Shown here one piece after another: positions 21,379 to 29,525 of a DNA stretch of 33,279 bases; the first letter of the stretch is position 1; the number at the start of each line of letters is the position of its first letter. A model generated the notes under the pieces. The model ran no database searches and was not told the origin of the DNA. It saw only the letters and a list, made by a program, of their open reading frames with translations. The position numbers and the translations under genes are program-made. This stretch comes from Prasinococcaceae sp. CCMP 1430 (Eukaryota > Prasinodermophyta > Palmophyllophyceae > Prasinococcales > Prasinococcaceae), in contig RQSC01001009.1 in NCBI GenBank assembly GCA_013416795.1, forward strand, positions 4,500-37,778, read 5' to 3'.

Positions 21379-22501
21379 TCAGGCAGAGTGGGGACGTGTC
21401 AAGAGCGACGCAAACGTGGGGCCATGACCACCTGATGCATCAGGCATGACCACCCACCCATGCTCTCGCCTCTCCGCCCGCAGCGCCTGGGCGAGAGCCT
21501 GCGGGAGCGGGCGCCGTGCGTCAGCGTGCGACAAGCACCCGCGCCTCACGTAGACGCGCACAGGCGGCAGAGCGCTCGCGCACCTGCGCATCATCGCCGA
21601 GCGTGTCGACAGCGCGCGCCCCGTCACGTCGACGCCGTCTGAGCAGTTTTGTGACCACCCCATCATTCTCCACATCATTGATTGAGCATGTGGAGTACAC
21701 CATTCTGCCGCCCGGCCGCAGCGCATCGAAAGCCGCAAGAGCCATCGACAGCTGCGTCTCCGCGTTTCTCCTTGCTCGGCTGGTGCTCCACTGATCCCTG
21801 CGCACGCGCGCGGCACCGCCCGCCTGCCGCACTACGTGGGCCTCGGACGAGCACGGCGCGTCGACCAGAACAGCGTCGAAGCCCGCGCCTGCGCGCTCGA
21901 AGCCGAAGTCCTCCGGCGAGGGCCGCCACCTCCGCGCGTCGCGTCGCGCGAACCTCACGTCCACGTCCACACCGTGGTCGGCGCGCGGTCCGTGCTCTAG
22001 CAGCACACGCCGCAAGCGCGCGGCGCGTGATGCGCTGACGTCGTTGCACACAAGCAGCTGCTGCTCGATCCCACCCACGCGCTCGTACTGCTCGCCCTGG
22101 GGCGCGCCTGCCCCGCGCTCCGCGAGCATGTGAGCGAGCACCAGCGACTTGCCTCCCGGTGCCGCGCACATGTCCAGAACAGCGCGGTCGGTGGAAGACA
22201 CACCCAGCAGCACCGGCGGGAGCAGCGAGGCGCCGTCGAGCAGATACGACTGCCTGCCGCTCTCGCCGGCGGCGCTGGCGCCCGACGCGGAGGCGGCAGG
22301 CTGCAGCGCGGCGAGCGGCTGCGGCAGTGGCAGCACAGACGCGCGCGCATCGCCCGCCGGACAGGCTGGCCCGCGCCGCGCGAGCTCCACCTTGCGCCCC
22401 GGCGCCTCGAGCGCCTCACGCAGCGCTGGCCAGCGCGCCCCGAACACCGCTGCGAAGTGCTCCTCGAGGCTCACCGCCATCCCCCTTCCCGCTGCCCGCA
22501 T
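21379..22501 (-). CDS. NSUN-family RNA 5-methylcytosine methyltransferase, two exons
   Basis: Exons 22501-21584 and 21498-21379 (minus) encode 345 residues. SAM motif I is 'VLDMCAAPGGKSLVLAHML'. Motif IV is 'AVLVDAPCSSEAHVV', with the product-releasing Cys. Motif VI is 'YSTCSINDVENDGVV', with the catalytic Cys. The 85-nt intron starts GTGCGC, contains GCTGACGC and ends CCCGCAG. It joins DTLGDDAQ to ALAQALRAERREHGWVV, recovering the family's C-terminal 'VMPDASGGHGPTFASLLTR' block. Reading through the donor gives a premature stop at 21521. The compact size and lack of an N-terminal domain resemble NSUN3/NSUN4-type enzymes (organellar tRNA or rRNA), but the substrate is inferred. A second ATG at 22480 is equally possible. 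Confidence 0.85.
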
Positions 22502-22836
22502 CGCTCCTGAGGTGATGGAAGGGGCGCGCCGGCGCGGCGCGCGTGCCCGCGCGCGGCGCCTCCCCGCCAAGCGCGCGAAGGTGCTGGGACGCGCGACCCG
22601 CGCACGCGCGGCGGACACGGCGCGGCGACGGCGCGAGCGTGCACTCGAAGGGCTGTGAGCCTGTGGGGAGGCGCCCCCCCTCATCCCGAGCTCCCTCACA
22701 GGTGCGACCGTGTGGCGCCCACTCGCTCGCGCGCGCGAAAACACCCGCTGCACCACTCGCACGCACCGCGCGCGGCCGAAGCGGTGCCGGGAAAACGCGC
22801 GACTGTCAGAAAGGTGTGATTTGATCATGCGAATTC
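22502..22836. other. Intergenic region, nothing recognised
   Basis: This 335-bp GC-rich spacer lies between the NSUN start and the stop of the glycosyltransferase fusion. No motif, RNA or conserved frame was seen; the NSUN promoter must lie here or in the fusion's 3' end. Confidence 0.5.
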
Positions 22837-25800
22837 TCAGCCTTCTTTTTGGCCTGCCTCCGTAGCTATCGTCATATTGTGCGGCAGCAGCGCGATGCCA
22901 ACCACGCACTCCTGCCACGAGCTCTGCCTGTTGTGGATGGCCTTCTCCTCGCAGTACTGCGTGAGGTCGCAGCAGAGCGCGTAGCCATCAACAGCGATGA
23001 AGGGCGGCATGTAGCCCGTGCGCGCGCGCCCGACCATCTGGTAGTATGCGAGCCTGCCCACGGAGCTGCTCCCGGGCGAGCCCACGAACATGTCCGCACG
23101 CGCGAGAAGCTCAACGTCGGCGGCGATGGAGAGGCTCGCGTGCTGGTCCAGTGCTTCCACGTCCCGAAACTCCATCCACACGCCATCCTTTCGCGCGAGT
23201 TGCTCGCGAGGGAAATCCAGGTACGTCCACTCGAAGCGCGGGTCCGTGACGAGCTCCTCGAGCGCGGGCACGTCGTCCGTCGCAACGAACACACGGGTGA
23301 CGCCGTAGGCGGCCTGCAATTCGAGCAGCGCGTCGAGGTAGACCTGCACCGAGTAGCACTTGCGCCCATTCTTGCGCAGGCCATCGGCAAACATGTGGTT
23401 GCGCGGGCCGCGCTCGTCTCGCAGGTTGTCCTCGCCCTGGTCGCACGCATCGCCGCGGCGAATGTGCACGGACGCAGTCGGTCCGGCCCCGTCGCCACCA
23501 TCCGCGCTACTCCCGTCGCGACGCGGGATGCGCCGCAGGTGCTGCGCGGCGTACTCCATCACGCGCGCGTTGGGGCGCGCTACCAGCTCAGCAGACATGG
23601 CGGCAGCGGCATACATAGTGAGCTTGCCGTGCTCGGCCTCCCCCGCCGCAATGGCGTCGAACAGCTCCTGCGCGCGCTGTGCGGGCACGTCGAGCGCGCC
23701 CGGAGGTGCAGACAGCAGGGTCCGGTCCTCGTCTCGGACCGGCCGCTCCGGCGGGTCGTAGAAGCAGTAGTACCCCCATCGCTCCCCGTCGTGGGCTTTC
23801 GCAAACTCGAGCGCCTCGGGCGTGTTGCAGTCATCCATGCGCTCTGTCCAGCGCCACTGCTTCTCCTGGGCAGCCGCTGCGGGGACAGCACGCAGGCCGC
23901 GCTCGTGGGTGAGGCCCCACACACCGTGTGCCACAACGCGCAGCACCGTCTTGCCCATGGTGAGCTGCTCCCAGTTCACGATGTCAACGGAGGTACGCTT
24001 CTCGGGCCACCGGCCGCCGGGCACCGTGTCGCGAGCCAGCCTGCGCATCGACGCCCAGAAGCGCGCCTGGCAGCCGGTGCGCCGCTCGGCCCCGAGTTGC
24101 GACAGGAAGTTCTCCGCGGGCGGCAGATACGACAGGGAACTGTCGAGGCGCACTTCGCACGAGTCGCCCGTGTAGCCGTAGGGGCACCGACGCAGCGTCG
24201 TTGCGATGGGCACGTCATCGTCGCGGCACGTCGCACCGTCAGCGCCTTCTGGGATCGGCACGGACAGCGGGAACAAACGCCGACCGTCGGCCTGTTGATC
24301 CCCTGCATCGGTGCCACTGGCACCAGCACCCGCACTCGCTCCAAAGCTTCCTACTGCCTTGGTACTCTCGGCCCATGCCGGCCTCAACTGGTCGGCGGCG
24401 CCGTCGCCCTCCAGCTGCAGGTCGATGTGGTCCTCATGCAAGTTGAGGTTGTACCAGATGGCGAACTCAGAGAGCGCCGAGGAGCTCTTGAGCAGGAAGT
24501 CGCAATGAGATAGAACAAGCGCATCCACGAGCGCCTCGGCCGCTTTCGCCCGGGCGCCGGCGGCCGTGCCCAACACTCTCCGCCAGTCAACGTCTTTCTC
24601 GTCAGTGGAAGCGCCCTCCCGCAGGTGCATAGGAGTGTGCTCCTCGCGCTCACCGACGTTCGCGATGTTGGCCGACCCCACGGCGGCAATGAACTCACGG
24701 TACATGCTCGGGTCATCAGTCGCCACAAAGACCTTGGAGCCAGGGTGGGCGTTGAGGTACTTGGTCGCGAGCTCAGCAAAGGGCAGCACCTCCACCCGGG
24801 GATGCACGGTCTTGTCGGTGCCGCGCAGGTGCACTCCGAGCAGCTTCGCCCCCCGGTTTGCCTTGGTATCCACGCGCTCATACATCGCACGCACGCGCTG
24901 AGAGACGACCTCCAGCACCTCCGGACGAGGGCGGAGCCACTGGTGAACCAAGCGGTTGGCAAGTGCTCTCACACGAAGGCGATGCGCAGCGTCGTACGAG
25001 TGAAAGTCAAAGTACGCCGAAACAGGCGGCGAGAGCTCTCCATAGCTGTACAGGTCCATGACGTGCACCACTCGCACCTCGCGCACAGGAGCAATCACGC
25101 CACCGACAGCAACGGTCTCGTCGCCTAGACGGTACGTGCTGACGGGCTCGAAGAGATACTCCCACACCGATGGGCCGACGGCAGCCGAGTGATACGCGTT
25201 TGGGCCCACGTCGCAAGAATCGTGTGGAGCCCAGGCAAAGGCACCGAGGTGCACCGCGGGAACGTATCCCTTGGCCGCAGCGAAGCGCAGCTGGTTGAGC
25301 ACGCGCTCAATCTGTGCAAAGAGCCCATGGTTCGTGTGGTCGCTCACCGAGAGCAACACAGTCACCGGCTTGGCTTTCGGGGATGCAGGCGGCGCTCCGA
25401 TGTCGTGCTGGTCGCGGCGCAAGACTTGTTGACCCCCTCGCGCGTCGCACTGTAGCACGTTGTACGGGGCGTTCGGCGCCTCTGCAGGGCAGCGCGCGCA
25501 CTCCACGCTGGTCGCGGCGGCGAAGGCCTCGCGTGCGTTGCCTCTATAGCCGTCGCACAGCGCTAGAGGGGCACCCATGGCATCGACCGCGGCGTCCGGG
25601 GCGAGCTTGTTCACCATGCCCTCGTGTGGGCGCTCCGATGTCAGCGGATCCACACGATACCACACACACGAGCCTTCGCGCACGGCATCTGCCAACATGC
25701 GCGCTTCAGGCCGGGTGCGCGCGAACGAATCGGCGGCCGACATCTCAGCGGCCGACCTGACGCGATTGGCTATGTTTGACACGATGGGGCCAAAGGTGTC

Positions 25801-28800
25801 GGCACCTTCCCTGTCCTCGTGCTCGAGGCAGCGGCGAGGCCACAGCGAGCGCCAGAGCAGCGAGGGGCGCACGTGGCTCAGTAGCGCTCTGCGTGCGGCA
25901 CCGAGCTCGAGCTGGAGAAGGAGGAGGAAGGCAAAAGAGGGGGGTGGGGCAGCGGCGGAACGAGAGTGTGTCATGAACATGCGAGGGTCAGCCGCACGGC
26001 GCTTGGGCGCGCTTGCACGGCAGACAATCGGAATGCGCGGGCGACTTCCATGATCCAGTGAATTCGCACCTTGGTGTACGTGTCCATCACCGCCTCCAGC
26101 CACCGCACTGACGGCGGCGGCAAACGCACTGACGACGCACCCCACTGCAGCGAGGGGCGTAACGACTGATCGGCGACGAGGAACTTGGTGAAGACAGGCA
26201 GGCATCCAACTGCCGCAGATGGCACATCTCTCTGACCGTAGTTGCCCGTCTTGCCCAGCGGCACCATACAGAAGTCACTCTTCGACATCTCCGTCAGGGA
26301 GTCTATTGGCTCAGAGACCTCCCACTTGTGCACCATGCTGAGCTCCTTCTCCGTCTGCACCATTTTGAAGCCCGTCTTGTTGCGCAGGTGCATGTACGCT
26401 TCGTACCTGCTGGGCTCAATGTTGGCCTTGGTGTTGATTGCCCCTGAGAAGAACATGCGATTGGTCCTCGGAGCGCCCTCGAAGTATTCGTTTTGCGCCT
26501 CCATGTCCAGCTCAAGCTTTGGCAGCTTGCGCAAACACGGAATGCCCTCTTGCATCGCATGCTTCTCGGCACTGTACGGATTGACGCCGTCCTGGACTCC
26601 CACGAAAGCTGGCACCATCATGTCCACGCCTGGCCAGTACAGGACCCTGGCAACGGCACGATACGGCACGTCGCAAAAAACATATCATGCGCGTGTCAGT
26701 CGCTCGGCAAACACACGTGCACACTCACCCCCACACAGCCTCGTGCTCTGCTGGCAGCAGTCTACGCTGCACTCAGCGCCGCACGCACCTCGGATCGAAG
26801 GTCTGGTCGGGTTGGAACGGCATGAGGTGGTCCGCGACGCCCGACAGCTGGAGCGAGCCGAACGGGCGATACGGGCTCAGTGGATGCAACTCGTCCCAGC
26901 GCTCGGCCTCGGTCTCTCTGAGGCGTCCAGATTCGACGTCCAACCTGTGCGCCGCCGCGATCTTGTGCGCCCGCCATGGCAAGGTATCCGTCCCGAACCA
27001 CATGTGCATGGAAGATCGCCAGATGGACGACCAGCCGTCCTCGTTGGGCGTGAGGATGTAGTGATTTGGCGGTGCGCGCGGGGCGTACACATCGCCCGCA
27101 TGCGAGCTGTTGTTCGCTCGCGCCGCATCGACGTACGCGTTCCAGTGGGGGAATTCTGAGCGCACCCAGCGCATCGCGGGCAAAACGGTGTTTTCCTCTG
27201 TACAGCCGTACACCCAGAATGCCTGCGCCTTGGCCGGGTCGGCCACCACATACTTGCTGCGCATCAGGCGTTCGCCCAGGCGTTCGGGCAGCGACCACGA
27301 GTAGCACGCACGGCGCAGCAGAGGGGGGATCTCGTATACATATACGGAGAGTCGATGGCCTCCGTCGCCCTCCCGCGCCTCAGGGGGGTGGTTTTCGCTG
27401 AGCATACTGCCGTCGAGCCCGCAGTCGAGCCCCCACCTGCCAGGCGGGCACCGACAGAAACCGTAGCTGCAATAGCCGTGGCCCTGACAGTTGTTGGGGC
27501 ACGCATCCAAGGGTGGCTGGTGCCAGTGTCTGGATTCCAGAAGGTCCCTCCACAGGTCCGGGCCGAGGATATTGCCCGCGCCTCTCAACAGCTTTGCGTG
27601 CTGCACAGCGATGTCGACGCCGCTACGTACGTCCGGAACGGGGTGGTAGCCTTCCGCCTCGCGGTCGGCGATGATCTCAGATTCGACGACGTTGCGCGCG
27701 ACGGGAGATTCGGGGATGACGCACGTGGCCTCAGTGAAGCCATCGCGCGCGAGCATCGCGGAGAAACATCGGCACTCATATCCGAGCGAGGTCGAGCGCG
27801 GCTTCTCGCCGCTTGAATCACTGCGCTCGTCGGTCACGCGCGCGCACCATCCGCCTGAGCCACACCGGCCGTCGCACAGGTCTGCGCGCACGGCTGTGAT
27901 GGCAGCCACGCGCTCGGAGATGCCGCTGGGTGGTGCCGGGAGGCGCGCGAGCAGGTCACGCAGATCTCCCTCCCCCGCTCTGTCCATACCGCCGCCGCGC
28001 ACCCTCACACTCATTCTGCGGTTCACCCATTTGCCGCTCGCGATCGCCGCGTAGTCTTCGACCGAGAGCGCGCCGGGCGGCAGCAGCTCGGGCTGCGAAG
28101 TCGGACCGCCCTTGATCCAGCTCGCGAGCGGGACGTAGCGCAGCGCGGACAAGGGCGGGGAGCCGTCTCGTGAAATGGACGCCACAGTGAGGGTGTCCTC
28201 GCCCGCTGCGTCCACGTAACACAAAACGCCCTGTACCCTCACGAGGTGCGGCTCGATCTCCGGAGGCAGAGGCAAGAAGTACGGCTCGTCGGCACGGCTG
28301 AAGAGGCGCGCCGCCTGGGCAACGCAGGAGCATGGCAGCGCGCCGAGCCAACGTAGCGGCGGATGGTGACCGCCAGGGGCTGGCTCACCAACGCGCCCGT
28401 CCTCGGTGCCGAAGAGCTCCTGCAAGAGCAGGAAATTCACGCGGCCGTCGTTGGGCGACTCGTTGGCCTCCCACATCGCCATGGAAGCCAGCAGCGAGAG
28501 GTTGATGGGCTCGTCGGCGGCGCCTACCCCTGCAGGAGCTTCGCACGCGGGCAGCATGGGGACGTCACACGCGTTCCCACGCCACGGCGGCGAGCACGTG
28601 CACTTGCGGCGCAGTTCATCGCACGTGCCCCGCCCGCTGCACGCCGCGGGGCACGGTGACACATTCATGGCGGGCCCGGTGGGTGCTCGTTTGCGTTCAC
28701 GTTCGTTCTGCCGGTGCTGCCGGTGGTGCGCTTGGGTCTGCTCCTGCTTCCTGGGCGGCGGCAGCAGCCTTCTCGGAGCCGGCGCTGGGCTGCCGTCGCT

Positions 28801-29106
28801 CGTGGTATGATCGCTGCCCAACACGCCGGCAGGCAAGGGCGCTGCGCGGCGCGTGGCATCGAGCGTGGCGAATGCGGGCTGGCCCCGCGCCCGCTCCAGC
28901 TCCCCTACCGCCTTGCCGCTGCCAAGGCCCGCCACCATGACCTTCCCCCTCTCGAAGTGCCATCTCGCCGCCGCCACCGCGGACCCCCCCCCGATGCCGA
29001 GCTTCACGCGCCCAGCCTCGAGCGCCGCGAACAGGCACAGCAGCACCGCGGCCAGCGCGCCGCGCCGCGCGAGACCCCCCTGGTGCCTGCCCCCCTGGCC
29101 AGCCAT
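22837..29106 (-). CDS. Giant fused glycosyltransferase: EGF modules, GT47 exostosin and two fucosyltransferase-like domains
   Basis: Exons 29106-26789, 26646-26070 and 25911-22837 (minus) encode 1,989 residues. N-terminal type II anchor 'ALAAVLLCLFAALEAG' (about 17-32). EGF-like modules lie near 152-180, 407-464 and 535-562. GT47 exostosin domain (about 583-1000) starts RLSVYVYEIPP. A fucosyltransferase-like fold (about 1150-1480) has 'GVHLRGTDK', 'VFVATDDPSMY' and 'HCDFLLKSSSALSEFAIWY'. An EGF-like 'CPYGYTGDSCEV' (about 1541) precedes a second fucosyltransferase-like fold (about 1560-1975) with 'VHIRRGDACDQG', 'VFVATDDVPALEELV' and 'DMFVGSPGSSSVGRLAYYQM'. Intron 1 (142 nt, GTGCGT) rebuilds 'DPRVLYWPGVDMMVP'. 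Intron 2 (158 nt, GTGCGA, CTGAC, long pyrimidine tract) is phase 0 and joins MDTYTK to LELGAARRALLS, completing the exostosin C-terminus. Likely a Golgi enzyme for a complex glycan. The alternative is two genes overlapping by ATGA at 25971-25974. Confidence 0.78.

Positions 29107-29178: not shown

Positions 29179-29180
<2 letters not shown>

Positions 29181-29219
<39 letters not shown>
29181..29219. repeat. Poly-G homopolymer (39 nt)
   Basis: Thirty-nine uninterrupted G residues, 75 bp upstream of the glycosyltransferase-fusion ATG. It could form quadruplexes. True length is likely uncertain because such runs are hard to sequence. Confidence 0.9.
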
Positions 29220-29223
<4 letters not shown>

Positions 29224-29300
29224 CTGCGAGGGGCGCCCCGCTCGTGCGCGGTCTGGCGCCCCGGGCCTGCGAATTGTGCTGCAGCAGGGACATGCATACT

Positions 29301-29335
29301 AAACCCTATTAAAACCCCAAACCCAAACCCGAAAC
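29301..29335 (+). repeat. Short telomere-like repeat block / telo-box
   Basis: AAACCCTA followed by AAAACCCCAAACCCAAACCC and GAAACC: degenerate plant-type telomere repeats. It lies 190-225 bp upstream of the zinc-finger/UBA ATG in the sense orientation. Confidence 0.6.
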
Positions 29336-29525
29336 CGCTGATGTGCGCCTGATGAGCGCAGCTCACCAGCGTGTCTGATGCGACATGCGGGCGCCACTGC
29401 GCGCGGGCGCAGCGCAGCAGTGGCGCGGGGCGGGCGCCCCCGCTCCCCCCTTGCATCCGGACGGCTCCACCCGCCCCCCCCTCCCCGAACTCGGCAGACA
29501 CGCGTCCGCGTTGACGGCAGCGGCG

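Follow-up and report, generated by a model that had tools for sequence, protein, structure and literature searches.

Glycosylation in the Golgi apparatus is usually pictured as the work of separate enzymes acting in turn, and fusions of such enzymes are few. Here we describe a predicted gene on the minus strand of a 33,279-nucleotide (nt) stretch of contig RQSC01001009.1 of Prasinococcaceae sp. CCMP 1430 (the whole stretch is referred to as the window), whose product combines a module of glycosyltransferase family 47 (GT47) with two modules of the FUT8 superfamily. The accessible part of one source lists as Golgi glycosyltransferase fusions EXT1, EXT2 and EXTL3 (GT47-GT64), LARGE (GT8-GT49) and the chondroitin synthases (GT31-GT7), and states that the function of glycosyltransferase clustering is unclear (PMC9178029). 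According to partial texts of other papers, ExAD, which adds arabinose to extensin, and ExAD-like proteins belong to GT47 clade E of plants, green algae and haptophytes (PMC5371791), while the 860-residue protein A111/114R of chlorovirus PBCV-1 holds three glycosyltransferase domains, proposed to be a galactosyl-, a xylosyl- and a fucosyltransferase (PMC7826918, PMC9614988). Similarly, excerpts describe a brown-algal GT23 (PMC11468063) and report GT23 genes predicted in several microalgal phyla, together with a bifunctional N-glycan enzyme in diatoms (PMC12507850).

The chain encoded at our locus consists, in this order, of an N-terminal anchor, an EGF-like domain, a Cys-rich region, a second EGF-like domain, a GT47/exostosin module (module 1), a Cys-rich cap, a FUT8/NodZ-like module (module 2), an EGF-like stub and a divergent FUT8-like module (module 3). 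Its front resembles that of ExAD, a protein of the green lineage in which a membrane anchor and two EGF-like domains also precede GT47; however, FUT8-like modules behind the GT47 domain go unmentioned in the accessible part of the ExAD paper (PMC5371791), and the likeness is one of layout. With the EXT proteins, LARGE and the chondroitin synthases the chain shares the fusion of glycosyltransferase domains, in one kind of them including GT47, but those proteins have two domains with other partner families, and EXT1 and EXT2 keep an acidic GT47 residue that is replaced here by Pro. A111/114R, encoded by an algal virus, likewise has three glycosyltransferase domains per chain, one of them a proposed fucosyltransferase. 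In contrast to our protein, neither an anchor nor EGF-like domains are mentioned for it in the available excerpts, and its fucosyltransferase domain was modelled on the alpha-1,3-fucosyltransferase of H. pylori, whereas the best structural matches of module 3 are FUT8. Finally, FUT8 (GT23), the brown-algal GT23 and NodZ have in common with our protein the donor-site motifs (module 2) and the GT-B fold (model of module 3), but a fusion with GT47 is not described for them in the partial sources, module 3 is without Lys369 of FUT8, and the cut-off of the Pfam FUT8 family (PF19745) is not reached here.

A chain with GT47 and two FUT8-superfamily modules was not found in the literature searched, in which subscription journals were thinly covered. 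An earlier note on this DNA stated that no enzyme with this architecture had been described; within that limited literature this holds for the complete chain, but not for its parts, since the front half has the layout of ExAD and a chain of three glycosyltransferases is known in chloroviruses. We rate the combination as a new variation on the known multi-glycosyltransferase fusions. If conserved, such a chain would directly test whether enzyme fusion fixes the order of glycan assembly, and it would provide a concrete setting for the GT23-like proteins of microalgae, about which little is known.

The gene comprises three exons, all on the minus strand. Exon 1 (26789..29106; 2,318 nt) encodes the start codon, the hydrophobic anchor, both EGF-like domains with the Cys-rich region between them, and the N-terminal half of the GT47 module, the C-terminal half of which lies in exon 2 (26070..26646; 577 nt). 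Exon 3 (22837..25911; 3,075 nt) includes the stop codon. The exons are separated by two GT-AG introns, of 142 nt (intron 1, 26647..26788) and 158 nt (intron 2, 25912..26069), the latter containing a pyrimidine tract and joining the two long frames in phase 0. The spliced coding sequence of 5,970 nt contains 1,989 codons plus the stop and has no internal stops, and the single product of about 1,989 residues, as well as the position and phase of intron 2, agree with what the earlier note had claimed. The stop that it placed at position 25971 is indeed present in the frame of exon 2 read without splicing, which ends in a tail (VRIHWIME...LACS) without counterpart in the alignment with the fused relative described below (P0001).

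Of the GT-AG pairs within the tested ranges of donors and acceptors, 158 of 443 (intron 2) and 10 of 167 (intron 1) leave an open, in-frame join. An open frame alone is therefore little proof of an intron, and it is the relative that decides. When all open joins were scored against P0001, 26069-25912 ranked first of the 158 (842; the next pair, whose acceptor lies 6 nt farther downstream, reaches 829), and 26788-26647 led the 10 (386, with a runner-up at 325). Since P0001 aligns without a gap over both junctions and the intron 2 already noted gives the best score, these sequence comparisons confirm that the locus is one spliced gene and not two overlapping ones. A plain annotation of open reading frames would give two overlapping genes here, an error which the spliced model corrects. 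An additional intron considered within exon 1 (GTGAGC...GCCCAG, near 28388-28314) was rejected, as P0001 retains its translation (RWLGALPC.CV.QAA). Neither TGTAA nor AATAAA occurs on the minus strand between 29200 and 22500, which is neutral with regard to both gene models.

The same succession of modules, which the earlier note had proposed to look for elsewhere, was found in one further protein. A search with residues 570-1989 (7,990 candidates sharing most words scored; E <= 1e-3) returned a single match, the metagenomic protein P0001 (1,936 residues, 63% identity, 99% coverage), which represents 4 member sequences located on 9 contigs (with lgn and ena as sources); further fused relatives may exist beyond the candidates scored. 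P0001, a metagenome prediction, is probably one uninterrupted frame. Its alignment with our protein extends over the full length and takes in the anchor as well as both EGF-like domains; gaps occur in the N-terminal stalk and in some of the linkers. Identity is high in the modules (EGF-like domain 1, 64%; Cys-rich region, 52%; EGF-like domain 2, 80%; GT47, 64%; cap, 49%; module 2, 74%; EGF-like stub, 57%; N- and C-terminal halves of module 3, 55% and 76%; tail, 76%) and falls to 38% in the anchor region, 28% and 25% in the first and second stalk and 34% in the linker. Conserved modules separated by diverging linkers are, we infer, the look expected of a multi-enzyme chain. No pattern matches to P0001 were found in viral contigs.

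The N-terminal half of the protein carries the anchor and EGF-like modules that had been claimed for it. The Kyte-Doolittle maximum (17-residue window) falls on residues 16-32 (29011..29061), a putative type II signal anchor or signal peptide, and in P0001 it begins at residue 15. EGF-like domain 1 (residues 152-183; 28558..28653) scores above the cut-off of PF23106, and the 64% identity given for it refers to residues 151-183. It is followed by the Cys-rich region (residues 184-534; 27505..28557), for which there was no Pfam match. EGF-like domain 2 (residues 535-564; 27415..27504) was placed from its Cys pattern: Pfam reports two EGF stretches in the protein, with coordinates for the best one only, and the counterpart of the second domain in P0001 (residues 476-507) is the best PF25024 stretch of that protein.

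Module 1 (residues 585-1015; 25762..27354, spanning both introns) belongs to GT47 by sequence, while its status as an enzyme is doubtful. The Pfam exostosin profile (PF03016, Exostosin_GT47), with which the earlier note had suggested searching, matches the spliced protein above its cut-off (39.1 versus 33.4 bits; E 7.4e-10), compared with 14.8 bits for exon 1 alone and 29.1 bits for the exon 2 stretch; the first splice therefore improves the domain too. The claim that the second splice restores an exostosin C-terminus is borne out by P0001, in which 36 of the 50 residues from 966 to 1015 are identical without a gap, but not by Pfam, whose best stretch runs to residue 956 and stops short of the junction (965/966). 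In a search of PDB sequences with this module a GT47 structure was not found, and no other GT47 was found in the assembly, where such counts are lower bounds.

Module 2 (residues 1143-1476; 24379..25380; motif HLRGTDK at 1326) is preceded by the Cys-rich cap (residues 1016-1142; 25381..25761), whose CDGY...C..CP...LQC pattern was recognised by eye also ahead of the corresponding module of P0002 and P0003 (Pleurochrysis carterae, EukProt label). Cap and module 2 thus appear, by eye, to travel together in these two proteins, which as given are without the GT47 fusion and may be partial predictions. A two-row profile of module 2 matched 112 proteins among 7,997 scored candidates, including proteins of P. 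carterae and Prymnesium parvum, and for several of these 112, Pfam domains of FUT8 or NodZ had been precomputed. One relative, P0062 (559 residues, from a metagenome), combines a FUT8/NodZ-like domain with a methyltransferase (precomputed PF13847 and others) and so represents another fusion of this type of module.

In an alignment of module 2 with 42 of these 112 relatives (picked by eye for coverage), the columns H, R, G, T, D and K and a Ser are invariant in 43 of 43 rows. Against PDB, the profile matched FUT8 (2.1e-14) and NodZ (6.9e-14), and more weakly POFUT1 (0.0076), POFUT2 (0.11) and two unrelated chains (0.14 and 0.3); exon 3, whole or in halves, found nothing of use among PDB sequences. 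In FUT8, GDP-fucose is fixed by His363, Arg365, Asp368, Lys369 and Ser469, according to the accessible part of PMC11468063. When aligned to FUT8, the HLRGTDK motif supplies the equivalents of the first four in all 43 rows, whereas the invariant Ser (residue 1443, 43/43) falls on the neighbouring Ser of FUT8, with a one-residue gap.

Module 3 (residues 1557-1989; 22840..24138; motif HIRRGDAC at 1781) follows the EGF-like stub (residues 1527-1556; 24139..24228). Stub and module 3 also occur together in P0114, which lacks GT47 and module 2 as given and may be a partial prediction; by these sequence matches, modules 2 and 3 both appear to exist outside the fusion as well. All five rows of the module 3 alignment keep R, G and D, the sequence ATDD and one Ser (residue 1914), and its structural model points to the GT-B fold common to FUT8, NodZ and the POFUT enzymes, with FUT8 as the best structural matches. 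The module 3 profile gave 414 pattern matches in viral contigs and 129 in prokaryote genomes, none of which was confirmed. A joint alignment of modules 2 and 3 was rejected for folding, because the relatives of module 3 fell on module 2, and a two-sequence fold of the entire exon 3 was unusable (pLDDT 30.7). Taken together, the matches support a placement of both modules in the FUT8/NodZ/O-FucT superfamily, nearest to FUT8 and NodZ; module 3 may represent a branch that has not been described.

We consider it somewhat better than an even chance (a probability of roughly 0.55) that the locus holds one spliced gene whose product is a multi-glycosyltransferase with a type II membrane anchor, probably located in the Golgi, which builds a short glycan. 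What we infer about location, activity, donors, acceptor and coupling can be put as follows. The chain would sit in the Golgi lumen by its type II anchor, and the EGF-like and Cys-rich front would recognise and hold the acceptor. Module 2, the surest enzyme of the three, would transfer a residue from a nucleotide sugar by a metal-independent mechanism of the FUT8/NodZ type, and the GT47 module and module 3 would either attach the sugars next to it or serve to hold the acceptor and bind the product. In this way a short glycan could grow on a glycoprotein or polysaccharide of the wall or the extracellular space, with no release between the steps.

Several observations weigh against this reading. 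The gene model is a prediction from genomic DNA and the comparison with P0001. P0001 itself stays below the PF03016 cut-off (25.7 versus 33.4 bits). In GT47, an acidic residue conserved on helix C-alpha-4 is tied to activity (accessible part of PMC9178029); in our own ungapped placement, counted from the Cys of the GC/AC pair six residues further on, it is Glu in EXT1 and Asp in EXT2, whereas our protein has Pro915, also Pro in P0001, with an Asp two residues earlier. It is this Pro that makes the activity of module 1 doubtful. At the place of FUT8 Lys369 module 3 has Ala (Ala or Ser across the five rows), and in P0114, a relative of it, the His of the motif is replaced by Gln. The model of module 3 was built on a 19-row alignment, 15 rows of which are FUT8/NodZ-like; its N-terminal half mostly has pLDDT below 65, and the Foldseek query TM-scores are low (0.21-0.38 among the matches listed). 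Against a PF19745 cut-off of 27.6 bits, exon 3 scores 14.2 bits (in module 3) and P0001 reaches 22.2 bits, its best stretch lying in module 2, and for this reason we assign the modules to the FUT8 superfamily and do not file them as FUT8. In a scan of ten proteins that included P0001, P0021 alone passes this cut-off (28.7 bits). The description in the earlier note of FUT8/NodZ/O-fucosyltransferase-type modules is thus kept at the level of the superfamily and narrowed to FUT8 and NodZ as nearest relatives, whereas membership in the FUT8 family falls short of the Pfam cut-off.

The remaining points against concern the sugar. GMD gave six matches in the assembly, none above the cut-off (best 53 bits versus 415), and the best GMD-type match proved to be a protein resembling dTDP-glucose-4,6-dehydratase (363 bits versus a cut-off of 365). 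For fucose pyrophosphorylase no match was found in the assembly, with a weak control (above the cut-off in 1 of 14 genomes). That neither was found argues against naming the modules plainly as fucosyltransferases, and fucose as the donor would be a precedent of the family, not a result of this analysis. It is possible, though we hold it only tentatively, that the fusion is real and modules 2 and 3 use another donor, e.g. a rhamnose or mannose nucleotide. The two enzymes not found and the dehydratase-like match favour this; however, absences of genes are limited by N-masked stretches and uncertain completeness of the assembly, the pyrophosphorylase control is weak, module 2 retains the donor residues of the FUT8 type, and four O-FucT (PF10250) matches lie above the cut-off elsewhere in the genome. 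The PF10250 family is not confined to fucose.

A second alternative, which we regard as possible but less likely than not, is that the chain is one fusion in which module 2 is the sole active transferase, the GT47 module and module 3 being acceptor-binding or structural pseudo-transferases. The Pro at the C-alpha-4 position in both proteins and the absence of the FUT8 Lys from module 3 would fit, and the GT47 domain of EXTL3 is reported as unlikely to be active (accessible part of PMC9178029). Yet the GT47 module (64%) and the C-terminal half of module 3 (76%) are conserved in P0001 to about the same degree as module 2 (74%), module 3 retains R, G, D, ATDD and Ser in 5/5 rows, and NodZ, labelled a fucosyltransferase in PDB, has HVRHGN followed by G and is likewise without the Lys. 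The earlier description of three catalytic domains can therefore be maintained as three glycosyltransferase-type modules, with donor residues in module 2; the Pro at the acid position of GT47 and the missing Lys of module 3 stand against the rest of it.

That the two frames are independent genes overlapping by ATGA, with 26069-25912 unspliced, is hardly credible: both frames are long and open and the downstream one could begin with a hydrophobic, signal-peptide-like stretch (MFMTHS...FAFLLLLQ), but the hydrophobic part of that stretch is the pyrimidine tract of intron 2 read as codons, P0001 is one chain without a gap at the junction, the joined pair scores highest of the 158, and the guanine-plus-cytosine (GC) content of the three codon positions is nearly flat in intron 2 (0.62/0.58/0.67), as in intron 1 (0.62/0.60/0.62), third-position GC along the coding sequence being 0.75-0.84.

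Going beyond the membrane-anchored multi-glycosyltransferase that we prefer, one may imagine a conserved "assembly line" of small algae in a single chain, in which an ExAD-like GT47 front and two FUT8-superfamily modules would in one pass furnish a glycoprotein of the wall or of scales with a fixed motif of two or three sugars, module 3 being a new glycosyltransferase family with a donor other than GDP-fucose. In this specific form the idea is speculative and rather improbable.

The assembly (24.5 Mb in 145 contigs, GC 67%) yielded no second copies of exon 3, module 2 (P0003 as query) or module 3 (P0114 as query), these counts again being lower bounds. A FUT8-family search of the same genome was uninformative, as it gave no match, missed the locus itself and matched no control genome. 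The O-FucT matches mentioned above lie at loci L010-L014, where a fifth falls below the cut-off and one of the four above it has an in-frame TAG. Contig C136 (476,838 bases) carries, at about 40% GC, two clearly different rbcL genes and a third, partial copy, similar to that at L007 as far as it extends, which runs into N (loci L006, L007 and L008). By eye, the two genes are of the green type (form IB); rbcL of this type and the GC content of the assembly fit a green alga. Organelle sequences may have been joined in this assembly, or it may contain more than one organism.

In the window, ten long frames (64-20863 and 21524-22918) were scanned, three of which were without a Pfam match. The other seven matched Serinc, an SMP domain, FAM91, MORN plus filamin, a BT1 transporter, a laminin-G-like domain and an RsmB/F-type RNA methyltransferase, the last lying directly downstream of our gene on the same strand; these neighbours look like ordinary nuclear genes. 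On its upstream side, a C tract of about 38 bases (minus strand, 29180-29220) lies about 75 bases ahead of the start codon, and telomere-like words of the TTTGGG/TTTAG type were recognised by eye near 29295-29345.
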